DNA of 21,259 nt from Saccoglossus kowalevskii (lineage: Eukaryota > Hemichordata > Enteropneusta > Harrimaniidae), in the NCBI RefSeq assembly GCF_000003605.2, contig NW_003135345.1, positions 320,813 through 342,071 of the forward strand, read 5' to 3'. Below, piece after piece: positions 1 through 20,573 of this stretch. The notes beneath the pieces are model-generated. The model worked only from the letters and a program-made list of their open reading frames with translations, made no database searches and was not told the DNA's origin. Within the stretch, counting starts at the first letter, position 1. Each line of letters opens with the position of its first letter. The position numbers and the translations under genes are program-made.

Positions 1-449
1 TAGATAGACATATAAGCCTGACTTCATGACAATGCAAACACCACACAAAGCATTGCGCACAAATAATAAGCCATGTATACAGGTTAGCTGTAGCCGAACT
101 GCCTAAACCACTATTTACTCATGTGTCTACCACCAGTAAGATGACCAGTCAGATTTTTTTTATAATACTAGTAATCGAAATAAAAATTATTGTAGTTAAT
201 ACTCGAAACCACGAATCAAGCAACATCTTTTCGTACTCACTTATAAGTAAAATGAAATTTAATACGAACTACCCTTGCGCAGTTCTGTAAAGTAACTGAT
301 ACTAAACAGGCCATTAACGTTCTTTAAAAATCACACATTTCATTGTGGACAAACCTGCTTATCAAACATTCAAATGGCATAATGGCTGCATAGTTTGAAT
401 TGAAATAATTGTAATAATATTAACTGAGAGGAGATTGATCCTGCCTTAC

Positions 450-575
450 TTGTAGCGTTCGGGAAAAAAAAATAACTGTTCACTTCAGCTGCAAGGCAGT
501 GACGATATATTGACGACAATAGGCCGGAGAAGCATACGTTTTGAGATTCGAAAACTCCACTCCGTAAAGTAGTTT
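450..575 (-). CDS. Candidate internal exon, unknown product
   Basis: On the minus strand a strong acceptor (gcggtttcttgcag) is followed by 126 bases and a good donor (ACAA|GTAAGG). One frame is open through the whole segment, entering after two bases and reading TTLRSGVFESQN near its start and PNAT near its end. The frame also stays open into the flanking sequence, so openness alone is weak evidence; the two splice sites are the main support. I recognise no domain. No partner exon was found, and a noncoding exon or chance are both possible. Confidence 0.22.
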
Positions 576-2366
576 CTGCAAGAAACCGCAAACATTCACA
601 TTAAATAGCCAGCCACATTATAGCAATGATACAGTAGATTTGATAGGTTTGTATTTGGTTGACCGAGGCAGGTCTTAAAATAATTGGTTATTGGCTGGCT
701 AAGATCTTTTATGTAAAGTTCATGTTCTAATGCTATTTATAAATTGATAAGTCTGAAACTGTGAGGAAAAAGGTTGAAGAAACTTATATCTTTACATAGC
801 TCGCCGTAGAAGTAACACTGATGTAAACATGTAAAAAAAAAAAACTAAAAATATTATTCAAAGGAACACGCGGAAGGAATGATGAATGAGGAAAGCAATT
901 CATGTATATTCATAATGGGCAGGTTGCTGGATTCTAATCAGATGTACGCCTGCAACTTTGAGATGAGAAGTTGTCATGTTGAAGAAGCGTAATACATTCG
1001 TCTTAGAATCAAATCTTATGTTAACATGTATAAAAGAAAATATGAATGTTATTGAAGGGATCTTACAAAATAGATGACGGGTGACAACCCATATGTACAA
1101 GATATAGTTAAGGTAAAGATGCAGTTTACCTGGCAGGTATTTTAATTAGTTAATTAGGAAACCAAGATGACCTCCCTTGTCCACAAAACTATATATTTTC
1201 GGAAAGCTTATTGTATGAATTTTAAAGTTTTGTGAGTATTTTATTTTTATGGACACTGTAGTTTGAAATATGCACAAAAATGTGCTTTTTTGGTCAAAAG
1301 TGATTTTAAAAAATAGCTTCTAAACCATGCTTCTGTTTCCTGTCAAAATTGGTTTATGGGTACATCTGTTTACTATGAAGAAAGTGCCGTCTTGAAAACT
1401 GTCTACAAGTTGTCAATTTTGTTGGGCAGCAGCTCAAATTTCACTACTTTAAGTTTATGCATAAATTAACACCCATGCTAGTTGTCTGTACGATTGCTGT
1501 AACACTATTCAACTAAAAACAATGCCCTGACGGCGTTTTGAAGATAAACACAATGTCAATCATTTGTGAACATTTCAAAACAAAAAGTCAAAGCGTCTAG
1601 GAGCTATCTTTTTACAGTTCTGGAATGTGCACTAAAAGAAGCTGAGATAATTGCTAATTTGCATAACAATTCACTCAGTAAGAAGTTTGCTAATGCTCAT
1701 AATTAAAATGGCTGTTACAGTTTCAAATTTAAATGTATTATCGTTTTGTAAAAAGTTAAATACAGTGCATAATATGGAGATCCCGTCATTTCTTTTTTCA
1801 CCATGTTTTTTTTATTATTGATGTACAGCCTTGCTAAATCTTGCTAAGCATTCAAAAGAGATAATGTTTGCACCTGTTATCTATATTTTAAAATCGTGTT
1901 TTGAGTATGTTCCACTACTCACAATTCTACAAAATTTCAACAGTCTATAGCCAAGACTTTTTGATAATAAAAAGCAAAAAAAATAAAAAATTCTCTCCCA
2001 AGTGCCCACGAACCTGCATCTCTATCTTAAATCAGAAAAAACCTTTAAAATCTGACAGTGGTAATATTTCGAATTACATTTCACCGCAAAGGGACCACCA
2101 ATCTAGATTTTCTTATTAATCAACCAAAATGATTCAAAATGAATCCGATATTAGTATACAAACGACCATACCAGGAATCCACTCTGAACTCATTTCATAT
2201 TGACAACGTTTTCTATATTTTTGAAACTGGATTTAAACGTTTCAAATATTATTCTAAACCATTTCACACGGCAGCTCTCGAGCTCTGATAGTCAATGCAC
2301 GTTTTTAGGGGATATGTGCGTCACTTGAAGGCTTGAATATTTGACTTCAAATCATATCCCGCGGTG
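576..2366. other. AT-rich noncoding stretch
   Basis: No convincing gene is seen. The stretch contains A/T homopolymer runs (830-845, 1805-1815, 1975-1990) and short chance open frames beginning at non-ATG codons. The 15-base string TAATTTGCATAACAA at 1655-1669 recurs exactly at 4881-4895. The nature of the remaining sequence could not be determined. Confidence 0.5.
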
Positions 2367-2382
2367 TTTGTTTTTTACTTAG
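2367..2382 (+). promoter_or_regulatory. Probable 3' splice acceptor before the micropeptide exon
   Basis: A T-rich tract, tttgttttttacttag, ends in AG at 2381-2382. A plausible branch-point sequence (ttgac) lies near 2341. The acceptor falls 59 bases upstream of the micropeptide ATG. This would place the whole coding sequence in one exon with spliced 5' leader, as is common for small genes. No upstream partner exon could be identified. Confidence 0.35.
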
Positions 2383-2441
2383 AGAGTTTAGATTATAATC
2401 CCGAGTTTCAGTCGTGTCACAAAGGTTCACAGAAGCAAACA

Positions 2442-2633
2442 ATGGCGGATGATAACAAGCAAAAAAAAAAATCCGTCAATCAACCGACAGTTGACTCAAA
2501 TGGATACTTAATTCTGAAATTCCCGAAGGCTACGCATAGGCGTCCGTTGGACACTTACATATGGACATTTGTCATCTTAATTTTTGTTTTGTGGACTATT
2601 TATTTGTTTTATCAAACGCATTGCTATTTTTAA
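2442..2633 (+). CDS. 63-aa single-pass membrane micropeptide, candidate SERCA regulator
   Basis: The frame starts at an ATG in a good Kozak context (caaacaATGG), the first in-frame ATG; the frame is open upstream only through a GTG. Residues 1-37 are hydrophilic and basic (KQKKK at 6-10, THRR at 31-34). Residues 39-57 form one hydrophobic helix, YIWTFVILIFVLWTIYLFY, and the peptide ends six residues later, so it is probably tail-anchored with its N-terminus in the cytosol. The helix pattern TFxILxFxLxxxYxFY resembles my recollection of insect sarcolamban. Length and layout are close to vertebrate another-regulin, and the aromatic tail recalls sarcolipin. Those families bind and inhibit the SERCA calcium pump; that role here is inference. 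A polypyrimidine-AG acceptor (tttgttttttacttag, ending 2382) suggests an upstream noncoding exon. No AATAAA is seen within about 1.4 kb downstream. It could instead be an unrelated small membrane protein. Confidence 0.6.
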   Translation: MADDNKQKKKSVNQPTVDSNGYLILKFPKATHRRPLDTYIWTFVILIFVLWTIYLFYQTHCYF

Positions 2634-2755
2634 GTGTGTTTTCTATCAGTGAATATAAATTTAAACTCTCAATTTTACTGTTCTCTGATTTGAATATCAA
2701 TATTAATGTAAATCGTATTCAACTACCTTGCGTGGATATCATGTTACAAAACACG

Positions 2756-2820
2756 CTGTGATTCATTTAATCAATGGAAGTTGTGTTGCTATGGCAACAA
2801 ATCTAACCTCTGAATCACAG
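2756..2820. promoter_or_regulatory. Palindromic element centred on an RFX X-box
   Basis: Perfect 10-base inverted arms, CTGTGATTCA (2756-2765) and TGAATCACAG (2811-2820), flank GTTGCTATGGCAAC at 2785-2798. That sequence is itself an almost perfect palindrome and differs by one base from the RFX-factor X-box GTTGCCATGGCAAC. RFX factors drive ciliary and other genes in animals. The element begins 122 bases after the micropeptide stop. It could act as a promoter or enhancer site, fold as a 3' UTR hairpin, or be the remnant of a short inverted-repeat element. Confidence 0.55.
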
Positions 2821-2908
2821 TACAATACAACAATAATTTCATATTCAGTATTGTTTGGAGGTTTTTAATGAACTCATAAGATAGTGTCAATCCCTTTTTA
2901 AATATAGA

Positions 2909-2916
2909 TGACGTCA
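2909..2916. promoter_or_regulatory. CRE palindrome TGACGTCA
   Basis: A perfect cAMP-response element (CREB/ATF site), TGACGTCA, lies 88 bases after the X-box palindrome. Together they suggest a regulatory element rather than plain spacer, but no transcript start is visible. Confidence 0.35.
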
Positions 2917-4195
2917 TCAGTACTGTTGTTATATTGTTCTGCCGTAACTAACAGCAACACGTCAGTATGCAACACGCGGTGGATATGAACATGTTGATGA
3001 TCATGTTTTTCAAGTTGAAATGAACAATACACAACGACCACAAATATACCCTAAAATGACGGATAATTATGACAACATTTGAACGAGCTAGAAAGTCGTT
3101 CGAATCTCGGACAAGAAAAACTTCGATCTACGCCAAACACAGGATTTAAGTCGTATATTTCTAAGACTCTGTTGGATAAGGTGAAATGTCAATAATGCAT
3201 CATGGTGTATGGCGTATTATCAACATGGAAACGCTTCTAATACACAGAGTACAGTGATTATTGAATGTATGCAGCGTCAACATCATTTCAAACAACATCG
3301 AATGACCGATTGCAGTCCCTGGAGATTAGAGACACGACTGATAACCTCTCTTGTTATCTATTAATAATTGTAGTCCATGATGCAATTCGCTTGGGGTAGT
3401 GGCTATGACCACAGTCAGCTGGCGCGATATTTACTATATGGGGCTGCCATCTTGATAGACGCATAAAACTAAATAAGAGACAAGTTGTGAAAAATTCAAC
3501 CTAATTCATTGATTTTGTGTGGAAAATCCCTTGCATACAAACACCTAATTATTCTCCGCGAGGTGTTTTGCAGATTGACACTCATCATTGTTTACCCATT
3601 TACCCAGACAAAGTTACCCCAGGCAAAGGTCATCGCGTTCTCATATTGTTACTTGGTTGAATGCAAGGAACTTGTTAGGGAATACACAGCACTCTTAGTA
3701 GTTCATTTCAAATAACAGGAAAATGTAAATTGCATAAATTCGGGGATAACTTCAGGATTGTGCTCATTACTACTATCGCGTCTTTTTAGAATGTTTAGAA
3801 AGTTTGTGTGGCCCTGCGAAATGTGCGTGTCGAGAAGCTCTGCCGTGGTCGTGAAATCGTTTCTCGTGAACCATCTTTTCGGGACAGTTAGTTGTTTGAG
3901 TTGTGCCTCTGTTTACAGCGTCGAGACGTGTTGTCTTAAGTATGTGTGCATCTCTGCCCTGGGTCGCCTCGATCTATCCCAGTTTTCGTTCGACTGCTAT
4001 GTGATGTCACAACTGAGCCATCTCAGGGTAGTTTTTACCGCTCCTACTCGAAGTGCTTAGAAAGTTCGAGAAAAAGATAGCGAATGACGAGACCAATAGG
4101 TAAAAAGGTGTTTAAGTAATTTCCTCAAAAATAAAACGCAACTCGGTGTTTTAAAATAAATCTTATACATTTTGCACGAGTTGTCTGTTCGTAGC
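2917..4195. other. Stretch without a supported gene
   Basis: A frame at 3509-3715 and another at 3758-4060 are open but lack recognisable domains. The segment from about 3790 to 4060 is richer in G and C than its surroundings, which lengthens open frames by chance. A second frame across 3490-3670 reads IDTHHCLPIYPDKV after an acceptor-like ttttgcag (ending 3575), but no good donor follows. Confidence 0.4.
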
Positions 4196-4201
4196 AACGA
4201 G

Positions 4202-4218
4202 CCAATAAAATCACGTGA
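4202..4218 (+). promoter_or_regulatory. CCAAT box plus CACGTG E-box
   Basis: CCAAT (4202-4206) is followed five bases later by TCACGTGA (4211-4218), a USF/TFE-type E-box. The surrounding 4150-4330 segment is locally rich in CpG and includes the short palindrome TCGAGGAACCTCGA (4287-4300). This resembles a TATA-less promoter and lies about 850 bases before the proposed gene start at 5061. Confidence 0.35.
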
Positions 4219-4479
4219 CACAACTTCCCGGGATTACGTTCGCGTATACGACTTCTTGTTACCACGGGTTACTAATGTCACGTCAATCGAGGAACCTCGA
4301 CTCAGCAAACGCACTCTTGATCGTGAGTTTTAGGACGGTTAGTGTAGTTGCAATATAAATGTCAGACTCATCATGAAATGCTACCGTTTTAAAAAGGATA
4401 ATATCTCATGCAAAAGCCAATGTCACAAACAGCAAGCAGAATATATTTCTGTGCGCATAAAAAGACAAACATATAATGA

Positions 4480-4860
4480 TCAGAACGTTATAATAATAAT
4501 AAAATAATAAGCTGTGGTATCGAATTTAAAACAAACAACAGTTCATATATACGGGTCAATGGGTAAGACACGATACATGGTATTTGTACATGCATAAGAT
4601 GCACACTTGAGTACACGGTGTCTAGAGTTGTACATTTTTAATCATATTGATAATTGTCATTTTGTTTTTTGTTTTCATTTTACTCTCATTATTGACTAGA
4701 ATATATTGAACGTTATACATGATATATCTTACTAAAACTAAAAACTATATTTATCAATGTTATCAATACAAGACATTATATAAGATAAGCATAATAATAA
4801 ATAAAGAAGATAATATAATATAATATTAATATTATGCGTAACACAATAAAACCATGCTGA
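4480..4860. repeat. AT-rich low-complexity tract
   Basis: TAA- and TAATA-type simple sequence dominates, for example around 4490-4510 and 4785-4835, with a palindromic run near aatattaatatt. It contains nothing gene-like. Confidence 0.5.
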
Positions 4861-4868
4861 TTAAAAGT

Positions 4869-4890
4869 ATGCAAATAAGGTAATTTGCAT
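4869..4890. promoter_or_regulatory. Inverted POU octamer pair
   Basis: ATGCAAAT (4869-4876) and its exact reverse complement ATTTGCAT (4883-4890) are separated by six bases. The octamer is the classical binding site of POU/Oct homeodomain proteins, and such palindromes can be bound by dimers. A further single ATTTGCAT lies at 5075-5082, inside the proposed first exon. Confidence 0.35.
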
Positions 4891-5013
4891 AACAAATTAT
4901 ATTTAAGAAATGCGCGATTTTAATGAAATAATATAATTCACTTGGAGATCGATATTGTTTAATGTTTTTGACATGTGTCATGGTAAATGACACGCCACGA
5001 TATATCGGAACTG

Positions 5014-5027
5014 GTTTCTATGGTGAC
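5014..5027 (+). promoter_or_regulatory. RFX X-box-like site upstream of the proposed gene
   Basis: GTTTCTATGGTGAC fits the two-half-site RFX X-box layout with a few mismatches to GTTGCCATGGCAAC. It lies 34 bases before the start codon proposed at 5061, where an X-box or promoter element could sit. A 7-base inverted repeat (GTGTCAT at 4975-4981, ATGACAC at 4987-4993) lies just upstream. Regulation by RFX is inference. Confidence 0.35.
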
Positions 5028-5060
5028 CGCGGAAGAATTGCCAAAGGGCATCTGCCTAAG

Positions 5061-7209
5061 ATGGAATCAGACATATTTGCATTTAAAGTGAGTGTGTAAG
5101 CTCTGGCAGTAACTACACCATGGAAACACCATCAGCATTCCCCTCACTGCTTACATTACAGGACCTAATCCATCACTTGTGTCAATTGGATGACAAAAGG
5201 TCTTACCTTCTAGCAGGTAATTTAATTTAACTGTCTGCATCTTTGTCAGAAATAGGCATGTTTGCATACTTTTGCGCAACTAGTCATGCTATGTTAGCGA
5301 CGGCCAACGAGACATTGTCTCGTCATTAAAACAGTTCAGTCAAACGAAAACTATTATTGCTTAATGACCAACGCAAGCTGTTGACGACGACGAATGCACT
5401 AGTACAATCGATGTCTTCAAAACAATAATAGTTTGAAATTTAGCATTCTGTGATCAACCTACACGTAAATACTATACCATATGATAGGTACACTGCAAAA
5501 CACAAACACAGAACACTAAAACTACATTCCTATTAGGAAATAAAAAAACATTACGTAGGTAAGTATATTGACTCCTCTCGATGGATTATATATGATGGGA
5601 GAAGAGACAGCTGGTGCAAAGACCATACATCGAGTACTTAAATGTATTATTCAATATTGAAAAAATACATCAATAATATTACAACATCACCCAAAGGGGA
5701 TATCTAATGTACAGTTCTATCACTGAAGTGCTATCTGACGTATCTCCAAATATCCTAGCTACAACAGAGAATACATTTTACATTTGCTGAACAAACCTCG
5801 CTAGAGTTATCCATTTGCCGATTCAAGTAGGATATCTTATAATGTTAGATGTATACAGATCGTAACACCACGCATTAAACTGCTCAGTCAATTAGTAAAT
5901 TGTTCTACTCTTAGAATCGTAACACCAGAAACATGTGAATACTGGAGAAGGCATTTCAAAAGTGAAGCGGTAGTAAAAAGCATTACTATCAGCGATGACA
6001 CATTATTATTAATTAGAAACTAGAGCTATGGAGGTCAATTGGTTGTACATAATCAGTTTTACGGGTTATCAAAATAAAGCAGACTAAATTAAACTGTCCT
6101 AGATCTATAAGCTAAATTGAAATGAAGTTGATGGCTCGATTAGGTTTGTCAAAACAAGTGATCATGTATAACAAATATTATAATTATATTAGCATAAATG
6201 TATAATTTCATCTTTCAAATTACTGATGAATTATAGCTCCGAATTTGGTCCCTACATACGAAGGGTGGTAAGTCGGTATACTTCGATTATAAGATTAAAT
6301 ATCGAAACATTAAATATGAAAAACTGATTAAATCTGAAGGTCATTTAATCTGATTATCGATAGTAAGTGTAATGCATTGTCACATTCAATAAATTAAATA
6401 TATTCCGCAACCGGTCTGTACTTAGACATGTGCGGTAGTTATATGCCAGTGTCTGCTGATGTCTGGGTAATCTTCCCAAACAAGGACCGGTTTCATCTAA
6501 AATAATTACACTACTATATTTGTACAAGGAAACACTTATTTACTGTATTTTTCAATAAAGTTGTTGAATGGAAAGTATATGTTAGTAGTAAAGTTTTATT
6601 CTCGACTTTGATTCCTGATACCAAGATGCTCGACGCTCCCATGTGAGGCTGTTCCTGTGCATTTTCTATTATAAAGTGCACCAACATTTCGGCATCTTTA
6701 AATTCTAGAATGTCTCTGTCTCAATCCATACGTCTATAAAGCGTTAAAAGACTCTGAGTGTAAGTAAAAATAGTACGTGGTGTAGACCTAATGGGTCATG
6801 CATGGGTTGACAGTAATGTTAGCATGAAGAGTTCGAACTACATTTATTTAACCGCCATGAAAACCACTACGTGTTCTCCATACATAGAAGAGTAAAATCA
6901 CCCTACAGCTATGACTAAAACAGAGTATCCATGTTTGCGATTATGTCAATTTTAAGTATATGACATCGTAGTAACGAAATTCCTGATTTAGTGGATTTCG
7001 CTGTCAGTGGTAGAAAAACCAAGCTTCATTTGCTTCAAAATGTATTAACTGATTATTTTGAAAGGGACTAGTATAGACAGCTTTCACATCAAGCTGACGG
7101 ACAAAGCTGGCACCTGGATGGTAATTGATGTAGATTAAGTCTTTCTAACACCGAGTACACACAGATTCTCACTTCCCAGCAAGACCAACTCCTAAGTAAG
7201 AATTCATAA
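5061..7209 (+). CDS. Tentative small spliced gene, about 72 aa, unknown function
   Basis: Proposed coding exons are 5061-5087, 5162-5216, 6709-6759, 7065-7120 and 7180-7209. Exon 1 starts at a strong Kozak ATG (taagATGG), reads MESDIFAFK and ends at donor AAA|GTGAGT. A 74-base intron ends in a strong acceptor (ccctcactgcttacattacag). Exon 2 reads DLIHHLCQLDDKRSYLLA and ends at GCAG|GTAATT. Exon 3 has a good acceptor and a GTAAGT donor, and only the required frame (CLCLNPYVYKALKDSE) is open. Exon 4 (TSIDSFHIKLTDKAGTWM) has a weak acceptor, gaaag. The last, 59-base intron has a CTAAC branch sequence and ends acttcccag; the frame then stops at TAA. All phases agree. No domain is recognised. An alternative start at 5120 joins exon 2 in the same frame. 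The chain could be chance, since splice-like sites are common. Confidence 0.33.
5307..5323. repeat. Small perfect hairpin
   Basis: ACGAGAC and GTCTCGT flank a three-base loop, a perfect 7-bp stem. It lies 24 bases before a larger inverted repeat (5348-5434) within the proposed first long intron. No function is evident. Confidence 0.4.
5348..5434. repeat. Inverted repeat with 12-bp perfect arms
   Basis: AAACTATTATTG (5348-5359) and CAATAATAGTTT (5423-5434) are exact reverse complements separated by 63 bases. This may be a remnant of a foldback element or a structured intronic RNA. No target-site duplication was recognised. Confidence 0.45.
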
Positions 7210-7262
7210 CAAAGACTATTTTACGATTATGACTTCCTAACAAAGACTACTTCCTGATTGTG
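7141..7262 (+). repeat. Degenerate 31-bp tandem repeat (about four units)
   Basis: Four consecutive units of about 31 bases begin near 7141, 7172, 7202 and 7232. Each opens with a version of CTTCCTAACAAAGAC. The last two are clearest, matching at roughly three quarters of positions with a constant 31-base offset (taacaaagacta at 7207 and 7238). The period is not a multiple of three, so it is not a protein repeat. The second unit contains the proposed last exon of the 5061-7209 gene, which weakens that exon. Confidence 0.5.
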
Positions 7263-8070
7263 TTTCGCATTGAAATGTGACGGTTGGTACGAGGGAAAAA
7301 TGACGTGCGTATTGTATTGTCTCTGTGCCCAACCATTAGTCAATTGACTATGTGTTTAGTAATTTTGCTATATAGATTATGATTGAACATTTTCCCTGTG
7401 TGTTTCCTAATTTATAATACGTACATATTGGTCATAGTACGTATTTGAAATGTACCACACACGATTAGCAAATGGTTTCATATACAACTTTTTGCACTGA
7501 CCATGCAATACATTGTAATTAAATTTAAAATCGCCATAATGTCAGTTACTAAAAATATGATTTGTCGATTTCTGAGTAGCTTAATGCTAATTCAATTTTT
7601 ATAAATGCCAGTCAAACTGAATGCATGTTGATAACCATAACTAACAAGTTGAATTGTATGATTAACGATTTGTTATCTGTTTTTGTTGGTGGATCTTTCA
7701 TTACTCGTGTACATTTTGTTACTACTAGATGTAAAAGTAGATGAAACCTATTATATCAACACTTAATTAGTTTAATTTATCGCACACATGTATCTCTATT
7801 GTAGCATTATCTTTTTCAAGGTCTAGTACAGCATGGATTCAAATATTGTTGTGTTGGAAATACATCACAATCAGATCTCGATAAATGTTGATTCTTCACA
7901 AAAGAGCTTCGTTTGTTTTATTTTGACTTTTCTTCCGCTGTGCTGTTTTTAACTCATTATGTTATACTCATCAGAAAATGATAGTGTTTTCAGTTGAATG
8001 TTTGAATGTGGCTGACATGCCTATATTTCTGATTCAATATCTACTTATTGACAAGGTGATTACATAATTA
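7263..8070. other. Stretch without recognisable genes
   Basis: The sequence is AT-rich and holds only short open frames. No strong exon-like pair of splice sites with an open frame was found here. Confidence 0.4.
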
Positions 8071-8110
8071 TATGACTGAATTTTTTACGTTCTTTTTACG
8101 TATGTGTTCT

Positions 8111-8225
8111 TTTAAATTATGGAGCACTTTGCCACTTGATTTAAGGAGAATGTTAAATGTTTATGGTTATAATATGAGTCTGTGTGATTTTATACGTGAG
8201 AATATTTTTGTATATATTCATTTTA
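8111..8225 (+). mobile_element. Possible decayed C-terminus of a non-LTR reverse transcriptase
   Basis: The frame translates to FKLWSTLPLDLRR, followed nine residues later by SLCDFIRENIF. Many LINE-type polyproteins end with a tail of the form LWNxLPxxLR...SLxxFKxxLKxxLF, as I recall. The spacing here is longer, and no upstream catalytic domain (for example the YxDD box) is present, so at best this is a short relic. A polyadenylation-like AATAAA follows at 8385-8390, and repeat DNA begins beside it. Chance resemblance is quite possible. Confidence 0.25.
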
Positions 8226-8274
8226 TTGATGTTTTAATAGCATTTGGAATTACAATTTTGTCACCATTTCTTCA

Positions 8275-8640
8275 AATGCTGTTTCCATGCCAACCAAATC
8301 CACATTTCTATCAACACTTAATGGATAGGTGTAGCATCAAGGGTAACCTTCTAAATTTTATGAAATTATGCACATAATTTTATAAATAAAAAAATATTTG
8401 TTTCCATAGCAACCAGAACTGCATCACAACCCAGATGTAATTGAATAGTTTATTTTAAGAGCAACAACTGTTAAAAAAGTCAAAAATATTCCATCCATCC
8501 CCAAAACCACTGATACTGTGGTAACCAGATCTACATCTCAACCAAAATGTAATTGATTAGTCCGTATCCAAAATGATATTACTATGAAAACTGTATCAAC
8601 ATCTGTAGCATATTATAATATATTTCACGATCATCCATCA
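8275..8640. repeat. Degenerate tandem copies of a roughly 110-bp repeat unit
   Basis: Related blocks recur with anchors at about 8281 (gtttccatgccaacc), 8400 (gtttccatagcaacc), 8515 (ctgtggtaaccagatc), 8583 and 8681. Each anchor is followed by an ACATCT or GCATCA-type stretch and, in the clearest pair, by nearly the same phrase (atgtaattgaatagt near 8435 and atgtaattgattagt near 8547). The block at 8400-8413, GTTTCCATAGCAAC, is X-box-like. The blocks resemble the front half of the dispersed repeat that follows at 8681-8832. Confidence 0.55.
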
Positions 8641-8680
8641 AGAACAAGTTATAAAAGAAAAATCATTCCCAAAATTTGTA

Positions 8681-8832
8681 TTTATATGGTAACCGTACCC
8701 ACATCTGCACCAAATTCAAGTGGTTCGTGATTGTGTATCTATCCACAAAGTTTCTATTTATCCTGGTAACAAACATTCCAACAAACAAACCAAAGCTACC
8801 AAAAACATAACTTCCTTGGCGGAGGTTATTAC
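8681..8832 (-). repeat. Dispersed repeat of the AACCTCCGCCAAGGA type
   Basis: Read on the minus strand it begins aacctccgccaaggaagtta, continues through a GTTTGTTTG-rich tract and ends near aatttggtgcagatgtggg. This matches, from memory, a short interspersed repeat found in many marine invertebrate genomes, in which the CCTCCGCCAAGG phrase precedes a (GTTT)n tract, then an AACTT..GTGG segment and a GGTGCAGATC segment. An open frame across it on the minus strand (8663-8917) is an effect of the repeat, not a gene. Confidence 0.6.
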
Positions 8833-8849
8833 TTTTAGCAACAGAGAGT

Positions 8850-9970
8850 GAGTGGGCCACGCGAGCTTTGGTTAGTTTGCGTCTCAAATTTCCGAATACC
8901 GTGGTTAAATGGATCAATGGAACGGTAGACGCATTGACGAGAAAAAATGAAACACTGTTTTGGGAGCAACAAAATGAGTATAGTGGTTCCTCGCTCTCAA
9001 CGAGATCTCGCCAGCATTTTTAACAATCCTAAATACTGTGGAATAGTCCCAAAATAGCCATACTTCTTCTTCCAATGGTCATGTGATAGTGCAGACGCTT
9101 TGATTTCTCATAATTGTCATACGTCATTCTTTGAAAATATTGATATAACAGTGAAGACGCGTATTTAACTAGACTGTTAAGAGATGTGTCCCAGTCCATT
9201 AGGTGTATTTCTTGATGTATTCGACATTTTAGTGTTATTTTATTATCCTACCGGTAAGCGAATTTCTAAGCACTCGATGAAATTACCGCATTTAAAATGA
9301 TGATGGAATTTGATACGCACCGCCCTAGTAGGTCCAATTTGAACGCAGGCCCAAATTTGCAGATTTGTTTTTACCGGAAAAAGCGTCCATGATGATTTGA
9401 CATCGTTGTCACATAGTTCATTTTTGTCCAAAAAAACTTATCACTACTGATTACTGAAATTAGGATATATTCATTCCTTGCCTGTTTGTCCCCGCTCCAA
9501 AATATGGAAACCCTGACAACAAAATCAACCGCACAAACGATGCATACATGCACATAGTTTCATTTTTTCATTGACGACTTTAAATAAAACGAAAATTTGA
9601 TTTTGACTAATGATAAATGCACTAAATGACAACATCAAAATGATATGGCGTCAGTAACACAACACTTAAGGGAAACATATATACAGAAATTAAATATGAA
9701 AATTGTGACATGTGTTTGAGAGGACGCTCACGTATGGAAAGCAATAATTTCAGTATTAAGAATTCTCTACAACTTGTTGTTTCAAATCGTTTGAAATTGA
9801 TTACCAATAAACATTAGAAAATACACAGAAAATATATAACCCCCAAATCTAAAAATAAAGGGCCGTAGTCGTCGCACCGCGCATATGCGACATTAATTGA
9901 TTTTCCCACAGTTCAATGTGCTCTGAAAAATTTGCCCCGGGCGACACTTGCATTATTTGGCGATTTTTTC
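8850..9970. other. Stretch without a supported gene
   Basis: Three short minus-strand open frames (between 9243 and 9807) lack recognisable domains and, for the most part, ATG starts. Nothing else structured was seen apart from local CpG enrichment near 9860-9960. Confidence 0.4.
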
Positions 9971-9978
9971 AATCCCTT

Positions 9979-10099
9979 CCAATCAGCAAACAAAATACCT
10001 AATTAAAGCTAGGTAACCTCTCAGTTTGTACTCGTTGGTGTGCGCAACAGTCAAAATCGCCATCTTTGTTCATATGAGACCCAATCTCGCGCATGCGTG
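9979..10099 (-). promoter_or_regulatory. CpG-rich promoter-like cluster: CCAAT, YY1-like, NRF1-like
   Basis: The cluster holds CCAAT at 9979-9983, AAGATGGCG on the minus strand at 10057-10065 (a YY1 core) and CGCGCATGCGTG at 10088-10099 (close to the NRF1 consensus). On the minus strand the order NRF1 then YY1/ATG suits a TATA-less promoter. The ATG within the YY1 core opens a 26-codon frame (10063 to 9983) beginning MAILTVAHTNEY. It holds a donor-like TTAG|GTATTT but no convincing downstream exon. Promoter function and direction are inferred. Confidence 0.35.

Positions 10100-10909: not shown

Positions 10910-10938
<29 letters not shown>
10910..10938. repeat. (TA)n microsatellite
   Basis: An uninterrupted run of about fourteen TA dinucleotides. 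It is a probable length polymorphism and a cruciform-prone tract, and it sits between the two CRE sites. Confidence 0.95.
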
Positions 10939-10942
<4 letters not shown>

Positions 10943-11007: not shown

Positions 11008-11907
11008 ATAAACACTAAGTAATGCTGTTAATTATTCATAATGAAGACATCCCCATAGGACAAAAACAAACGCTAAAACTAACGACAGACGTATTTCTAA
11101 TGGTTGTGGCACTCTAATGCAACAGTCAGACATTTGGGGTTAAAACTATCGTTGTCTTCTGTGCACGTTCACATTCAAACTGTTTTATGGGCTGTAATTA
11201 TGTTCTGTAATTACGACAGTTCTATTTTTTATCAAAATATTATAACTTAGATAAACACCACTGAATAAATTAGCTCAACTACCAGGTATGTTAAAGCTGA
11301 AAATAAGACCATAATAAACACATATCAGACAATACACACAATAAAGAAAATAGATACAGACAAGTACAGATATTGAAAACATTATGTTTTATAACATGTA
11401 TGCCACGAAAACGTGTCATTGCGCCATCAACCCACTTGCAAAAACACTACTATATAACGTAGCAAGAATATTTTGAAATCCCAAAAAAAAATCCATTTTC
11501 GTAAGATAATGTTGTTATCATAGTTTCAGGCTTTGGTTTCTTTGAAGTCGGCGATGTCATTACATTACTCGGTTGGTATACAATATACCCTACGGAGGGT
11601 CAATATTTCATAACAGTAAATGTATACTATGTTTGTCTTCGCCATTTGGTGTCTTCTCAAAAGTACTAATTCACGTTTGGTACTTCGGCATAAAAAACGA
11701 AACAAACGAAACTTTAACTCCAGATCTTAACAGATCACAACGAACTTCAATGATTGCGTTCAGCTATTAATGTGCGCGGTGAGGCAGCAACAGATTCTGT
11801 TATACAAGCTGAGCACATATTGCTTCATCTAACTACCAGGATACGTCGTGTCTGCTATATTATAACGACAACAGCATGTGCCTCTATAATTATAAATGTA
11901 ATGTGAC

Positions 11908-12022
11908 TATGAGGATACCTCAAAGTATGCACGAAGACAGTACAGCTGGAGTATCGACCGACGCGCAACGGAAGTCGATGCGCGGCGTACAGTCTGAGTG
12001 CATACTTTGAGGTATTCTCGTA
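11908..12022. ncRNA. Long hairpin, candidate microRNA precursor or foldback element
   Basis: Arms at 11911-11932 and 11998-12019 are reverse complements over 22 bases, with one G-U pair if transcribed from the plus strand. Three further base pairs extend the outer end, giving 25 continuous pairs. Inward, pairing resumes as AAGAC/GTCTG-like, GTAC/GTAC and ATCGAC/GTCGAT blocks separated by small internal loops, closing on a short GC-rich loop. The total is about 115 nt, in the range of animal primary microRNA hairpins. The mature sequence does not match any microRNA I can recall. Either strand could fold. The alternative is a short inverted-repeat transposon remnant. Confidence 0.4.
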
Positions 12023-12066
12023 ATAACCTTATTATTATATAAATATTTTCCTTCCAAGGACACACC

Positions 12067-12264
12067 ATGGAATACCGAAATGTTAGAGCAGAATCAGCGA
12101 ACATTTTTGTGTGGAGTCCGGTCAAACCCTGGTGGCAGCCATGTTTGTTTTTATTATTAGAGGACGCTTACGCGAGTAATCATTCCATGTTTGGAATTCG
12201 CATTTCCTTATATGGTAGGACAAAAATACCCCGTAAAATACCACAAAATTATGGCATGCTGTAA
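12067..12264 (+). CDS. Short ORF with good Kozak context, doubtful
   Basis: The 65-codon frame starts at accATGG 45 bases after the long hairpin, reads MEYRNVRAESANIF and includes a WWQP motif. No domain, signal peptide or membrane helix is convincing apart from a short LFLLL run. An antisense frame overlaps its start. At this length in AT-rich DNA, chance is the likelier explanation. Confidence 0.12.
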   Translation: MEYRNVRAESANIFVWSPVKPWWQPCLFLLLEDAYASNHSMFGIRISLYGRTKIPRKIPQNYGML

Positions 12265-12265
12265 C

Positions 12266-13180
12266 TCATGGCGTTACGGTGACAAATGTACAATTATAAC
12301 TTTTATTATTTAATTTTGTCTGTTGTAATTTGGAAGATTTATATTCTGTATCTTCTCACGCGAACTACATTATTTTATTCAATAGTCATAACGACCCGTA
12401 CATACGCATATGATAACTCAGAATAGCGCATTTCAAATGGCTTCACACTAGCACCATAAAGCGCAATACAATGCTAGTAATTCCCGCCATTTATTTCAGA
12501 AAAAAATAACTTGTAATGCAACATGGTTTATTGAACATGATATCATAAAAGCTGAATACTAACGTGTAGCATTTATATTGAAGGCGGACTAGCACAGCTA
12601 GAAAATACAATCGTAGGTTTCCAGTGAAATGCATCGCTGCATTTACGTAATAAAGTAGTTCGTCTCGTGGTTATTAGTCTGTCGAATTGTTCATTAGATA
12701 CCTCCAACGACAGGCACTATATTCCGAATTTACTGTGATGATAACACTTGTCTCAATTATTAATTTACCTAAAATAATAATTTCAGTATAAATAACGTTT
12801 TTCTTATATTAATAAATAGTTCAATACGTCCAATGAATGTAGAGCAATGATCGGTTATTCCTACAACCATTTTGGAATCTCTTTTCATATATATATATAT
12901 ATTATTTATTTTCATCACACTATTTATCTTTGCACATTTTAATAAAAATATTCGTCTGCCAGTTAGCATTACACTATTCCACTTTACTTTTGGATGCACA
13001 TTGTGACATCAAATACGAGTTGATCAAACGCAGACAGCTACAACAATAGGACATTATTTCGTATAATCTAAATATTCGGTTAATTTTGATTAACTTCTTT
13101 GACAGTATTAATAAAAAAAGAACCACTGCAGCAACGACGGGTGACATTGAAAGTTTTCTTCTTTGTGCCAACTTTAATTA
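12266..13180. other. Stretch without a supported gene
   Basis: AT-rich sequence with a (TA)8 tract at 12887-12902. Two overlapping minus-strand open frames (12769-12999 and 12974-13171) lack recognisable features. An ETS-type CCGGAAGT motif lies at about 13184. Confidence 0.4.
12887..12902. repeat. Short (AT)n microsatellite
   Basis: Eight AT dinucleotides in a row, continuing into a T-rich stretch. This is simple sequence only. Confidence 0.85.
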
Positions 13181-13974
13181 CAGCCGGAAGTCATAAATAG
13201 ATTCAGTACTGCTTTCAAAGCCTCCTGTTCGTAAATGAATCGATATGCATTTTTAATTTATATATTTTGTAAGAGTTATTGCTTTAGAGGGCCTTTCGCC
13301 GATAAAAGAAACACGCTGCAAACAGACATGCTCAAAGGTCTCAATATTTCAGTTACTATAGAAACTGTTTCTTGAAAAAGCTGCATGCGAAACACTATAT
13401 ACTTTGTTTATGAATGAATAAGAGACTGGCAAGCCATTTTTACGATGTAATTCTCAATTGTTCGCCGTATAAAAACAGATATATACATCACCTATATATG
13501 CATGTGTGAGTTTTACTCAAAGCCGTCGACAATGCAAGCTCTTCTTTGAGATTAGGCCGTCGCCATAGCTACGCTTTGAGCACACGTGATTCTTTCAATC
13601 AGATAATAATATTTTGGGATGCATAATGATGGGACTGCAACCTTGAAAGATTAGAATCTATACACAGATCGATGCATTCTTTCGACGTTACGACGAATGT
13701 ACATCACAATTACGTAGCCAGGGGCTTCGGAACATTTTGATTTCCGACAAGTGCCGAGTTTTTAGACCTTCTAACAACAGCTGAACATAACAACTGACCA
13801 AATAATCAAAGCAAATCTGTAAATAAAATGCCATCGTTTAGTGCAACGTGTATTCTTTTAGTCAATTCGTATCATGCATTTAACAGCAACAACAATGATA
13901 TTTGTATCAAATTCTATTTTCGACATTAAAGGTACAGCACTATCGTAAATGTGCATGTACGCGGTGTGCTTAGT

Positions 13975-13989
13975 CGCGCACAGTGCGCG
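13975..13989. repeat. GC palindrome CGCGCACAGTGCGCG
   Basis: A perfect 7-bp inverted repeat around a single central base, unusually GC-rich for this window. It may be a protein-binding palindrome. No neighbouring gene was found. Confidence 0.4.
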
Positions 13990-14697
13990 GTTAATTAACA
14001 TGAAATGACAGGAAGTTATTATAATTGCGAATCTATAATCGTAAAATACAAAAACTCATGATGACACGGCGATATTGAACGTTATAATGAATTTTGGCCT
14101 GAAAATACGAACAATTTTTTTTTATTTTGGTGTTTCCTGAATGAGTGTTCATGAAATTGAATCACCAATATTCTGACACGATTTAATCTATTTGAAATCT
14201 ATAATTATACTGCGAATAATCTTGTTTTATTGGGTATCATAGGCAATGATAGGTGAAATATATCAGCGCTCACATCTGTCGTGATCAATGTTTCTAATTA
14301 GGAGGCCTTAGCAAAAGAAAAACTACCAATTCGTCACTGATACATTGTTAGAAAATAGCACGCTCACAGACGCTCGCGCTTGTGTGCACGTTAATAGCCG
14401 CGCGTTTACATTCATATACAATCATTAAAACTAGTCAGTCGTCGTGCAACGAGCGTTCATAATTAGCGTGAATCAACAAACGTCGTGTACGTCGCATGGT
14501 ACCCGTATCAAACACGTCGCATCACGATGATTGGGCGCTAACGATGTTATAAAGTTTGCGATTTGATGAACGGTCATGACTATATGCGTACTTATAACCA
14601 GATCTTACGGTGGTGACAAACTGTTCGCCTCATTATTTCAAAACATATACTTTAACACGGTGGTGTTTGAGTTGGTCGAGTTTGTTTAAGGTGTTGG

Positions 14698-14710
14698 GCG
14701 CCATCTACTC
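14698..14710 (-). promoter_or_regulatory. CTCF-like core (minus strand)
   Basis: On the minus strand the sequence reads GAGTAGATGGCGC, matching the AGATGGCGC core of the CTCF motif used in bilaterian animals. A second CTCF-like core in the opposite orientation lies about 700 bases away at 15412. Confidence 0.35.
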
Positions 14711-14901
14711 TTTTCAATACATATGAACATTACGGTCAATGTGAACAATTGCAACAGGTTCACGGATTTCTTAGGTAGGTACACGAATGGCTCCGCCTCG
14801 ATGAATAATTGTCACATCAGAGAGACAAATCTCCAAATAACTCTCAGTTAACAATTGTTTGAACGTATAGTAAGTGACGCGCATTTAGATTATATGCTTA
14901 C

Positions 14902-15891
14902 TTAGACTACCAGCGTTTCCATCGCGCTAAAAGCAATAGGAAATACAAAAGGTCTGTCATATTTATATTCAACACAGCTCATCCCCCCAGAAATGTATTG
15001 GCGGGAAGAGAATGTTGACAACATGTAATCTGTAGTTACGATCAACTTGGGAAACCGTAAGAAAAACGGTTCCCTGAATGTAATTATAGTCTTTTTATAC
15101 GCAGTCCAATTATTATGCAATAAATACTGACATCTATTAACCTTATAACTACCAATACGTAGCAATATTTAATCTCATAAATTGCTAAATGTTACTATGA
15201 TGCAGACGCAAGAATACAGTCTTTAACGTGTTACTATAATAACAGTAAAGATTTATGTGATCTATCATTTTAATCGAGGAATACCCAAAATAAAACAAAA
15301 ACGCCACAATAAAAATAATATTACTGGACTATGCAGATACTTGTCATATCCAACATTTGTTGCTGAGCAATAACTTCAAAGTTAAAGCATGAGAATCTCA
15401 CAAACACTGACAGGGGGCGCTATTTCATATGAATTGTCAAGGCTCGCAGAAAAACACAAAAAAACACTCTATATCATTCAAATACTATGCAAATTAAACA
15501 CATATTTTAGAGAACAAAGCGAATACTAATGTCTCTGTTGTCTTATACAATGAACCTGTTTCAAAATAAAATAATAATATATCAACAAATTTATACGTGA
15601 ATATATTCATTATTACCAAAATATAAATGAGATTACATTAGCACAACATGCACACAATGGCTTGACGATATTATACTTCATATATACTTTCTAAAATGTA
15701 GCTATAACTTTCAAAAAATAGGAAAGACTGATAGTAGCCGCAGAACTTCCAAATCACCAAATGTGAATAATAAACGATTTTACAAGTTTTATTATATTTG
15801 CTTTCGTTTTCAAAATGTTACTCAAATTACCTTGTAACTCCGAAGCATCAAATTCACATACTCGACTCGTTATAGTGTGCAAGATTGACAT
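14902..15891 (-). CDS. Tentative two-exon coding region, about 62 aa, unknown function
   Basis: On the minus strand a T-rich acceptor (gatattttttaag) precedes 15896-15831, which ends at a good donor (CAAG|GTAATT). Only one of its frames is open, with an ATG at 15891 reading MSILHTITSRVCEFDASELQ. The proposed next exon, 15029-14902, follows a moderate acceptor (gatcgtaactacag) and keeps the phase: G plus AT gives Asp, then YMLSTFSSRQYISGG, ending METLVV and a stop. A possible noncoding first exon is at 17128-17031. No domain or membrane segment is recognised. Support is splice-site quality and phase agreement only; a chance arrangement is quite possible. The second exon lies in a longer open frame that starts at TTG. 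Confidence 0.22.
15412..15422 (+). promoter_or_regulatory. CTCF-like core (plus strand)
   Basis: AGGGGGCGCTA is an almost ideal CTCF core (AGGGGGCGC) and stands out in AT-rich surroundings. With the site at 14698 it forms a divergent pair. Occupancy cannot be judged from sequence. Confidence 0.4.
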
Positions 15892-16362
15892 TGTATCTTA
15901 AAAAATATCTTGGAACATTTAAATAAATATTTTTTTCACAAACCTTGGAATTATTACAAGTACGAAAAAATGTCACCCGACCTTTAATGGATACACACAA
16001 AGGCTAACGAACGCACAGGAGAACATCAAGACCAATTGTTCAGAGAAGGCAAATATTCAATACAGGTAAACTGATACTCGTAACACCGACATTTCTATTT
16101 GGAATGCAATGCGCATATTATTTGTTACGCGCGCCAAGGGGTATGAACATTAACTTACCTACTAACAGCTAAAACACGTTGGAGGGAACATAATTTGTTT
16201 TTCTAATTAAGCCCCACTCCGTTAAGTTAATTAATCACTTTAGTCACTCAATTCAGTACTCAAGGCTGTATCGAGGTAGCAACTAGGATAATTGTCAAAC
16301 AAGCTTACATAATGCGCTATGAGCCTGAATGTGAAAGTACATACTATGTTTTGACAGCGTGT

Positions 16363-16440
16363 ATGTACATGAAAATGGCGACGTTGTTGCGGCTGTATTT
16401 TTTATTTTTGTTTGATTCTTTAAAAAAGACGAGTGTGTAA
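16363..16440 (+). CDS. Short ORF with YY1-like start context, doubtful
   Basis: Three in-frame ATGs lead into gaaaATGGCGACG, a start codon in good Kozak context that also resembles the YY1 core. The frame reads MATLLRLYFLFLFDSLKKTSV before the stop at 16438-16440. A hydrophobic stretch after one Arg is followed by a basic end, which resembles a signal or targeting peptide. It is too short to judge, and no splice donor breaks the frame. Confidence 0.15.
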   Translation: MYMKMATLLRLYFLFLFDSLKKTSV

Positions 16441-16828
16441 TAGCAATGTAATTTTTTAAACACAAATTCTGAATTAATTAATTATTACATTTACTAATTA
16501 GTTGTATATCGATTTATCTGCGTAATATTGCAGTATTCAGCTATTGTCAATATATTATCTTATTTATATATATCTTAATGTTTTCAATGTATGCAGTTCA
16601 TTGAAAGTTTATTCCAGTTCTTACTCGCACTCCCACACACTCTTAATACAAATATTACTCGACACAATTCGTTTCAGATATTTGATATTTTAAATAAACT
16701 TGTAGAGATCGATATAATAATTAAAACAAACGAGCACGTTGCCATTACAAATCCTATAAAAAACTTATATCTAAATACTCGCGAATATTATTGTGCCTTC
16801 TAATTGAACAGTTATGTGTTTTCGTGTT

Positions 16829-16868
16829 CGTGTGTGTGTGCGCGCGCTCGCATTTGTGTGTGTGTGTT
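16829..16868. repeat. Alternating GT/GC tract, Z-DNA-prone
   Basis: From 16829 to 16847 pyrimidine and purine alternate perfectly over 19 bases, a (TG)n run followed by (CG)n. A second GT run follows to 16868. Such tracts favour left-handed DNA under supercoiling. It lies 36 bases upstream of the NRF1 palindrome. Confidence 0.7.
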
Positions 16869-16903
16869 TGAAAGAAACGTTTTTTTTTCACGGGATACAA
16901 CTA

Positions 16904-16913
16904 GCGCATGCGC
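16904..16913. promoter_or_regulatory. NRF1 palindrome GCGCATGCGC
   Basis: A perfect copy of the NRF1 core palindrome, extended imperfectly on both sides (CTA before, TTAG after). It is surrounded by AT-rich sequence but adjoins the alternating GT/GC tract, a pairing seen near TATA-less promoters. The gene it would serve is not clear. Confidence 0.4.
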
Positions 16914-17030
16914 GTTAGCTATTAAATTATGTTACATCATTACGCTATAAAGTCTACATTCAAAAGATGTTCACAGCTGACTTCTCATCGCTAAATGTCG
17001 CTATCGATAAATAATTTAGAAATCTCTTAC

Positions 17031-17128
17031 CTTGTTAAATGACAATCATTCTAATAACTAAATACTGGCTCTGATTACGAACTGTTCATTCTGACCCACC
17101 ACCAATTAGCGTTCTCAAGCATCCAAGC
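17031..17128 (-). other. Candidate noncoding exon with strong splice sites
   Basis: A very good acceptor (ttacctattctttag) is followed by 98 bases and a near-consensus donor (CAAG|GTAAGA). All three frames contain stops, so if it is an exon it is untranslated, either a 5' UTR or part of a noncoding RNA. It lies on the same strand as, and upstream of, the tentative coding exons at 15891-14902, to which it could be spliced. Confidence 0.25.
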
Positions 17129-17502
17129 CTAAAGAATAGGTAATTACGTCAAATAGCTGAGTTTTCTTGCAATTCACTGAAAATACAATTTCTTTTGTTC
17201 GAATCATTTTTTCCCCTGATGTGTAATTGTTATCTTCGTCGTCATGAGCCGATATTTTCTGTGCACAATGTCTTCAAACCTACTAGGCATATTTGCTATT
17301 CAATCTCACTCAAACCTGCAGCCGAAGTACATTCCCATACCCTAATTCAATTGCGCGCGACATGTCAGCGAATTCCTTGAAATAAATTAACATCATAACT
17401 TAGTATAATCAATGATTCTATTCCACGTATTCTGTGTCTATTATAAAACACACTTTAATATTTCTTTTTCATTCACGCTCTCATTATATAACTTTACTCC
17501 TC

Positions 17503-17566
17503 GATACTACGCAGCAGTAAACAGTCGACAGTAACCATGCGTACACATGCATGGCTGCGTAGAATC
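17503..17566. repeat. 64-nt hairpin with 13-bp stem
   Basis: GATACTACGCAGC (17503-17515) pairs with GCTGCGTAGAATC (17554-17566), with one mismatch. The loop contains CCATGC (17535-17540) facing GCATGG (17549-17554). It may be a structured RNA or a foldback remnant. Confidence 0.4.
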
Positions 17567-17770
17567 TGTGATTCATATCGAACACGGCATATCAATCACC
17601 GCGACCTTCCACCTAATTAAACGTCTCTTGTTAGCCAATAATGAAGTCAGAGTGACCTGATTCATGACATTGAACATATACTTCTTCCCGGAAAGCATAT
17701 ACACCGCGGGCCATGATCAGATCCCAATGTAGACTGAGTCACTGTGTTATACAAATGAAAAGAGTGTACT

Positions 17771-18372
17771 AAGGCCGTGAGACAATTCATGAGCCAACGC
17801 ATCGAAAACGCAAGAGTTGCCTTGTGTGTATGGTAAGAATTGCGTTGCTAAAATGCTCCGTCACCACAGTTGCCTCGTGTACTTTGCGTTGCCAGTTGCT
17901 CATTTCCCCCATAAATCCCGAATTCGTTTTCAAAAATAAAACGTGTGATGTCTTCCTTCAACATCTAGGTCATCTATATTAATTTTTCCAAATCACTTCT
18001 GTAAAATAACACGACCTCTTGCAAGGATTCGCAGACATTCCTTATTGTAATTTGTCCTGTAATTTAGTATTTACTTAGAAACAGATGGAACCCTCTTCTG
18101 ATTGACTAATCACAATTGCTGGTAGTATAGTACAAATAATCAACATTTACCTATAAAATATACGTCCAGAGTTTTAAACAACGCTTGAAATTGCGCGGCA
18201 AAGAATGGGCTGGTCGATAGTATTCTGCCCATGCGCAAAAAGGGGGATTTGGCAACGAGTCGCGCATTCGGTTGCCTCTGGTAACCTATATTGTCGTCTG
18301 CATGCTACTGCATGTTTCTTCATTCGTTGCTGGGTGCGTTGCATCATGAATTGCTTGGCGTAACACGGCCTT
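17771..18372. mobile_element. 602-bp MITE-like element with terminal inverted repeats
   Basis: The ends are inverted copies. Both begin AAGGCCGTG. After a short length difference both continue CAATTCATGA, then CAACGCA two bases later. Subterminal regions of about 150 bases on both sides are rich in GTTGC/GCAAC words and each contains a CCCCC run (near 17908, and GGGGG near 18242 on the right), as expected for inverted subterminal transposase-binding sites. The interior is AT-rich with no open frame, so the element is non-autonomous. The flanks CTA and TTA may be a degenerate three-base target duplication, which would suit a PIF/Harbinger-type origin; that assignment is a guess. Confidence 0.7.
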
Positions 18373-18374
18373 TA

Positions 18375-18925
18375 GAATTGCCGTTTTAAAAACAGAACGA
18401 GTAAATTAATTATTTCATAACAATATGAGGTTATTACAAGTACGCTTTGTGACTATTGAATTGAATACAAGTAAAAATGTAAATTTCAAGTGAATCAATC
18501 AAGTTATGTCTATAATACATTGCTTTCGTTATTATTACAAAAACGTCGAATTAATTGCTCAGTAATCAAATTATTCTCATTAGCAATCCAAGAAAAAGGG
18601 AACAGATTTCGTATCACTAATGTAGAATTAGTGTCCAATATAATAATGGGAAACGAAGAGGTTGCTAATACAAGTACCGTAATGTGAACGAACCTTACGT
18701 TGCCACGTATTGCGATAATAGCTGAGCCTGGAATCCCTTGAACATGTACTAGCATTTACTGCGTTGTATAATGATGGCATTAAGACCGTAATAAGGGATA
18801 AAGCATTGAAAAGGCGGGAGTGTAAATTGGAATAAATTCTGCACAGGTAGAAACAATCGATAGCTTACAGGAAAAAAAAAACAGACCCACACACCTGTGT
18901 ACCGTGAAAGCAACTCCTGCGTGAA
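18375..18925. other. Stretch without a supported gene
   Basis: Overlapping sense and antisense short open frames between 18490 and 18755 show no recognisable features, and the sense frame starts at GTG. Confidence 0.4.
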
Positions 18926-18949
18926 ATATGCAAAAACCAATTTGCATAT
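18926..18949. promoter_or_regulatory. 24-bp octamer palindrome
   Basis: ATATGCAAA (18926-18934) and TTTGCATAT (18941-18949) are exact reverse complements around six bases. Each half contains a POU-octamer-like ATGCAAA. It parallels the octamer pair at 4869-4890. Confidence 0.4.
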
Positions 18950-19625
18950 ACCTTAAAACATCACTCCGGAGTTTCTAATGGTACATCCCTTATACTGTCT
19001 GTACATAATTGTTTAAATTTCACTCAACATCGAAGGAAATGCATTTCACTTAGACAGAATGGTCTCTCTATCCGGTGCCTCTCATCGTTATTGTATTTCT
19101 GTCACTTTTCTATAGTGTTGACAAAAGTAATTGGCTAATAAAACAGAGCTGTTCGGACAAATGACGTTTAGTCAGTCTCTTGTCTCATGTTTTTTTTCTG
19201 ATTTTCACAGAAGAGGTATTAAATGATTCAGGTTAAATCTGATCGGAAAATATTTAATTGTCTGTACCCTCTAAATGTAGTTAACAAACAAAATAAACAC
19301 GTCAGCTCCCTGTTGTATAGAGAATTTATTTCTTTGTGTCGTTTCGTTTTTCACGTCAGTGCCGCATATTAATTTATTCACACAGGTCTACGTGACGTAG
19401 CATAGCAGACATTTCATTGCGGCGTATAGCTGCATTGTGTTAGTCGCCTCGCACAGTGATTAAACGCGCTCTATGCTTGTATATGGCACGGATTTCGTGA
19501 AGAAATCGATAATCTCACTCGGAGATATTCAATAAGTGCCACCTTGATCACTACTAACTCGCTCTTTATATTCAACTGAAATGAATTATATTCTTGAAGT
19601 TATATTTTGCCCTATTATTATTCAG

Positions 19626-19697
19626 TACATAACGGAGAAAAGGAAAACTGTCACGGTTGTTGAACTATCCACTGGATCGACATTTCTGCTTCTGAAT
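19626..19697 (+). CDS. Candidate 72-base internal exon, unknown product
   Basis: A textbook acceptor (ttttgccctattattattcag) and donor (GAAT|GTAAGTATT) bound 72 bases. Exactly one frame is open, in phase 0 at both ends, reading YITEKRKTVTVV near its start and ending FLLLN. Unspliced, the same frame runs from an ATG at 19581 to a stop at 19718. The string TE-KRKTVT resembles the last part of the histone H4 fold (TEHAKRKTVT), but the rest does not fit well. No neighbouring exon in matching phase was found after it. Of the isolated exon-like segments here it has the best splice signals. Confidence 0.35.
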
Positions 19698-20103
19698 GTA
19701 AGTATTTGGCCGTCATGACGTACACAATTGTTGGTTAGGCAGAATTATTCTGATGTTTAATTCATGCAAAATAACTGAATGATGACTGGAGGTGCGATAA
19801 TGCAGAAATAATTACTTCCTCGTGACTCTGTGTATTCGTAATTCTGAATACGAGAAACGCATCTGAAAGAGATGACGTAAGTTAGAATATCCTCCGACAG
19901 TAAAAAAAAAATGTTGTCAAGGTTGTTTCTCGAACGTCGCCCAGAAAAGCATATTGACACAACAAAAGTGCATCGCCATTTCGCGTTTATTTCCGGGGCA
20001 TTCATTCAATGGTAAAATGGAGAGCAGCGCTAACAAAGCTTTCGTATCAGCGACTCGTGCATACACGCATTAATATTGTCTACATCTGTGATGTAAACCA
20101 CTA

Positions 20104-20502: not shown

Positions 20503-20573
20503 AATTTAGCTAATAAAAAAATAAAGAATAAAGAATATTTTTGCAATGAGATTATTGGCACTTTAGCTAAATT
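20503..20573. repeat. Inverted TTAGCTAA-type repeat cluster
   Basis: AATTTAGCTAA (20503-20513) and TTAGCTAAATT (20563-20573) are exact reverse complements with a 49-base A-rich loop. Further TAGCTA words occur at 20481 and 20498. This may be low-complexity expansion or a foldback structure. Confidence 0.4.

Follow-up and report, generated by a model that had tools for sequence, protein, structure and literature searches.

A candidate sarcolamban-like, tail-anchored micropeptide gene in the hemichordate Saccoglossus kowalevskii

The locus and its surroundings

The window, that is, the whole stretch of DNA analysed here (21,259 nucleotides from contig NW_003135345.1 of S. kowalevskii), contains 23 ATG-initiated open reading frames (ORFs) of at least 50 aa, among them the candidate, one open frame of 63 aa at positions 2442-2633 of the + strand with the translation MADDNKQKKKSVNQPTVDSNGYLILKFPKATHRRPLDTYIWTFVILIFVLWTIYLFYQTHCYF. 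Its start context, CAAACAATGGCG, is a strong Kozak sequence with an A at -3 and a G at +4. The nearest in-frame stop codon on the 5' side is a TGA at 2334-2336, and the frame lacks a second methionine and so a possible start for a short form. The features of the locus are:

2442..2633, + strand: candidate tail-anchored sarcolamban-like micropeptide, 63-aa ORF (open frame, strong Kozak start)
2442..2555, + strand: residues 1-38, hydrophilic basic N-terminal part, presumably cytosolic (hydropathy; low model confidence)
2544..2624, + strand: residues 35-61, single predicted transmembrane helix (AlphaFold2 and hydropathy maximum)
2565..2615, + strand: residues 42-58, TFVILIFVLWTIYLFYQ, sarcolamban B-like core (9/17 identical, BLOSUM62 score 53)
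2381..2382, + strand: possible 3' splice acceptor, 60 nt 5' of the ATG (rank 51 of 2,003 AG sites on a crude ad hoc score)

Structure prediction by AlphaFold2 from the single sequence, without an alignment, yielded one helix spanning residues 35-61. The mean pLDDT was 95 over residues 41-50, 92 over residues 51-60, and 55-67 within the N-terminal 30 residues. Residues 1-37 have a mean hydropathy of -1.19, the hydropathy maximum of the peptide is 2.09 over 19 residues, and the pattern TFxILxFxLxxxYxFY is found literally at residues 42-57. The placement of the ORF, its good Kozak start, the single C-terminal helix and the residue pattern, all of which had been proposed in the original prediction, were thus borne out. 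By the positive-inside rule, the N-terminus would be expected to face the cytosol. With regard to base composition, codons 11-38 have a GC content of 46%, a level that is reached by 5.4% of the 84-nt stretches of the window, and the helix-coding part has a GC content of 25%; a run of 11 A residues lies inside the frame, which counts against a real gene.

The putative acceptor at 2381 is possibly compatible with an intron in the leader or with an upstream coding exon. Downstream of the ORF, variant polyA signals are present at 2652 and 2654, and, as a further point against the gene, no canonical polyA signal was found between the stop codon and position 4130, where the first one occurs. The sequence TTTCAGTCG at 2406-2414, some 31 nt 5' of the ATG, is initiator-like as judged by eye. 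Another ORF of 66 aa (2561-2761) overlaps the candidate in a different frame, has a weak start context and is probably spurious.

In the remainder of the window, Pfam searches in six frames, with stops read as X and E up to 0.1, gave no match within 1-10001 or 11259-21259, in a scan that would have missed the candidate peptide as well. No Rfam family reached its gathering score over the window, and no tRNA was found by ARAGORN in its bacterial setting. The longest ATG-initiated ORF, 8072-8377, encodes 101 aa, is hydrophobic in its central part (hydropathy 2.32), has a weak start context and gave no Pfam match in the scanned frames. An inverted repeat at 11891-12039, with 53-nt arms that are 79% complementary and 43 nt apart, could be a small MITE-like element, and a (TA)n microsatellite of 16.5 copies at 10910-10942 is the only tandem array found in the window. 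Vertebrate genomes are CpG-poor; the observed/expected CpG ratio of the whole window is 1.06, without a depletion of the vertebrate type, which agrees with an invertebrate source and is no proof of an animal one.

Chance expectation for the ORF and its architecture

The length of the candidate is ordinary for this DNA: 200 dinucleotide shuffles of the window contained on average 10.5 ORFs of at least 63 aa. Similarly, AT-rich DNA of this kind often encodes a helix at the C-terminus: ORFs with this property alone were present in 441, 493 and 514 of 600 simulated windows each. The combination of the helix with a strong Kozak start and a hydrophilic N-terminus occurred in 3, 5 and 4 of 600 windows simulated with Markov models of orders 1, 3 and 5, and in about 170 ORFs among 20,108 simulated windows; it was absent from the 200 dinucleotide shuffles, where a slightly stricter N-terminal cut was applied. 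In the real window, the candidate is the only ORF that passes the helix filter. The full architecture is therefore uncommon by criteria that are post hoc, the thresholds having been fixed after the ORF had been seen.

Likeness to sarcolamban

For comparison with calcium-pump regulators, the sequences of seven regulins (sarcolamban A and B, SCLA and SCLB; PLN; SLN; MLN; ALN; DWORF) were used, each of which except MLN matched its own family in a Pfam check. The whole argument is drawn from one sequence and two sarcolambans. In ungapped alignments, residues 42-58 are identical to Drosophila SCLB at 9 of 17 positions (BLOSUM62 score 53), and residues 42-57 to SCLA at 8 of 16 positions (score 39). 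The SCLB score was reached by none of 3,000 shuffles of residues 38-63, the maximum being 51, and by none of 3,000 shuffles restricted to residues 39-57; the SCLA match had p=0.004 and p=0.024 when residues 38-63 or only residues 39-57, respectively, were shuffled. DNA decoys were drawn from the 20,108 simulated windows, 427 Mb in total, which had been generated with an order-5 Markov model of the real window. They comprised 36,010 ORFs that encode a C-terminal helix and are 50-120 aa long; scores were taken over 17 residues without gaps. Not one of these decoys reached 53 against any of the seven regulins, the best scores being 44 against SCLB and 52 overall. The SCLA score of 38 over 17 residues was matched by 36 of the 36,010 decoys, a weaker result than that for SCLB.

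A hidden Markov model (HMM) built from SCLA and SCLB gave 8.0 bits for the candidate, a value attained by 3 of 20,000 shuffles and by 24 of 36,010 decoys, to which the 170 full-architecture decoys contributed none; the model is hence less exclusive than the ungapped SCLB score. When sarcolipin and phospholamban were added, the score on the resulting four-member HMM was reached by 84 of 20,000 shuffles and 106 of 36,010 decoys. In a panel of 16 sequences scored with the two-member HMM, the candidate ranked first (8.0 bits), above the accepted pump regulators SLN (4.7), MLN (0.2), PLN (-0.8), DWORF (-2.5) and ALN (-2.7). The scale of this model is shallow, since the yeast-to-human helix of OST4, which is not a pump regulator, took third place with 3.8 bits.

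Sarcolamban was the sole Pfam family listed for the peptide, and its score of 6.8 bits (E 7.7) lay far below the cut-off of 27 bits; when just the helix region was submitted, the score was 8.4 bits (E 2.5), also below the cut-off. SCLA and SCLB scored 68.8 and 65.4 bits on the same model. Among 30 controls with shuffled helices, 5 had a family match at E up to 10, in no case to Sarcolamban, and one control matched the ALN family with 10.4 bits (E 0.78), better than the peptide's own match. As shuffled controls also give matches, the Pfam match of the peptide is no evidence alone. Furthermore, the ALN scores of 3,000 shuffles rose to a maximum of 57, so that a score of 53 is possible for this composition against some regulin; together with the ALN match of the shuffled control, this indicates that composition alone can yield regulin-like scores. 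The shuffles and decoys support, for this single sequence, a transmembrane core that is sarcolamban-like beyond what composition explains, and the proposed likeness to arthropod sarcolamban is borne out to this extent.

The residues that would face the pump were compared at the critical PLN positions 31, 34, 35, 38, 42 and 48. Aligned on PLN Asn34, the candidate has Y, T, F, L, L and F at these positions, against L, T, F, L, L and I/F in sarcolamban. Five of the six residues agree with SCLA or SCLB, the exception being position 31 with Tyr for Leu. This agreement had p=0.0003 in a fixed register and p=0.0027 over nine registers, and p=0.0022 and p=0.0150, respectively, when the union with SLN and PLN was used as reference. 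Position 34, Asn in PLN, is described as vital in PMC8396278. Of the entry motif of sarcolamban, LFTTF, only TF is kept in the corresponding YIWTF of the candidate.

The remaining regulins gave no comparable signal. Ungapped matches to PLN, SLN, MLN, ALN and DWORF were not significant (p 0.15-0.71 over both kinds of shuffle), and the SLN score over 17 ungapped residues was matched by 1,551 of 36,010 decoys. An HMM of SLN and PLN gave 0.4 bits, which 7,040 of 20,000 shuffles and 8,733 of 36,010 decoys reached, and Pfam listed neither PLN nor SLN for the peptide. A likeness of the N-terminus to MLN (NxxLI...PK), noticed by eye, was rejected: the strongest ungapped alignment with MLN falls within the helix and lacks significance. 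The original prediction had further likened the longer soluble N-terminus to another-regulin, which did not hold up: the ungapped ALN score was 28 against a shuffle mean of 28.1, 1,008 of 36,010 decoys reached it, and Pfam gave no ALN match. The reading as an another-regulin hybrid is rejected on sequence, and no relative of the N-terminus emerged from these comparisons.

Searches for relatives of the peptide gave 12 pattern matches in viral contigs and 98 in prokaryotic genomes, none of which was confirmed, and no relative in plasmids at E up to 1, as expected of an animal gene. By sequence, the PDB returned a single unrelated match (E 4.2), the SCLA and SCLB profile found nothing there at E up to 10, and NCBIfam gave no match to the peptide. 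Among the literature titles searched, which mostly left out subscription papers, none dealt with sarcolamban outside arthropods.

Discussion

The likeliest single reading, which we adopt tentatively and with a confidence just short of even, is that the 63-aa ORF encodes a real sarcolamban-like, tail-anchored regulator of the calcium pump with a long cytosolic N-terminus. According to this model, the ORF would be a small gene whose product is tail-anchored in the endoplasmic or sarcoplasmic reticulum, with the basic 37-residue N-terminus in the cytosol, a membrane-crossing helix formed by residues 38-57, and the tail QTHCYF in the lumen. The helix would occupy the groove of SERCA in a similar fashion to sarcolamban, with Thr42 in place of phospholamban Asn34 and with additional contacts made by Phe43, Leu46, Leu50 and Phe56, and the peptide would lower the apparent calcium affinity of the pump. 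We infer each of these steps, that is, expression, topology, location, pump binding and inhibition.

An alternative that we consider unlikely, albeit one to be taken seriously, is that the ORF arose by chance in AT-rich noncoding DNA, where a T-rich stretch is read as a hydrophobic helix and the likeness to sarcolamban emerges from a very large search. This would be in line with the ordinary length of the ORF, the 25% GC of its helix-coding part, the frequency of C-terminal-helix ORFs in simulated DNA of the same composition, the lack of any Pfam-recognisable gene in the scanned parts 1-10001 and 11259-21259, and the selection of the sarcolamban likeness after the sequence had been read. However, the failure of all 36,010 decoys to reach 53 against any of the seven regulins speaks against it, as do the rarity of the full architecture in the simulations and a GC content of codons 11-38 that exceeds that of most of the window. 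Rather improbable appears a convergence on sarcolamban by a real tail-anchored microprotein that serves a different partner, such as the translocon, oligosaccharyltransferase or a mitochondrial complex, or that has a SNARE-like role. A basic N-terminus followed by a C-terminal helix is a widespread design, the OST4 helix with 3.8 bits outranks most true regulins in the panel of 16, and membrane helices easily share residues, as illustrated by the ALN match of a shuffled control. Against this stand the 8.0 bits of the candidate, well above the rest of that panel, and the lack of any further Pfam or NCBIfam family at E up to 10.

It is highly improbable, in our view, that the ORF forms the final coding exon of a larger, spliced tail-anchored protein, its ATG being internal. 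While the acceptor at 2381 is fair and is followed by a stop-free in-frame stretch up to the ATG, the strong context of this ATG argues for a genuine start, and Pfam recognised no upstream exon. An intron in the 5' leader, as in the PLN and SLN genes, would fit the acceptor at 2381 equally well.

If the reading as a sarcolamban-like pump regulator is correct, it might be speculated that some invertebrates outside the arthropods carry a sarcolamban with a cytosolic arm of phospholamban size, a generalisation that we regard as unlikely at present. Were it true, the basic and possibly phosphorylatable sites of the arm (KKKS) could make the peptide an adjustable brake of the pump, and an ancestral animal regulin with both parts would be suggested, the arm of which was lost in arthropods. 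Owing to their shortness, regulins escape ordinary homology searches across phyla; for instance, SCLA and SCLB gave no match to the Pfam models of phospholamban or sarcolipin, nor vice versa. Should it prove conserved, the combination of a sarcolamban-like core with a long cytosolic arm would be a sequence link for the evolution of calcium-pump brakes, and the 63-aa ORF provides a concrete candidate to test.

Comparison with known systems

Myoregulin and DWORF are small tail-anchored SERCA peptides, as the candidate is by prediction, and differ from it in that no significant match was obtained. Another-regulin (ALN/C4orf3, PF17696) is similar in length (66 aa) and in its layout, in which a soluble N-terminus precedes the C-terminal helix, as predicted for the candidate, but the candidate differs in a score that does not rise above the shuffle mean. 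With sarcolipin and phospholamban (PF05366, PF04272), the candidate shares the overall topology, as far as predicted, and the Phe after the polar residue, and phospholamban has a cytosolic N-terminal part, as is likely for the candidate; the difference is that a sequence signal of either family is lacking. The likeness to Drosophila sarcolamban A and B (PF21898) comprises the single C-terminal membrane helix, predicted for the candidate, with the TFxIL core, the Thr at the position of PLN Asn34 and the aromatic YxFY end. In contrast, these proteins have 28-29 aa and almost no N-terminal extension, whereas the candidate has 63 aa and a long basic N-terminus, and the LF pair before the polar residue of sarcolamban is YI in the candidate. 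Departing from PF21898 in cut-off, length and entry motif, the peptide may thus be regarded as a variant that perhaps works like sarcolamban rather than as a member of the family.
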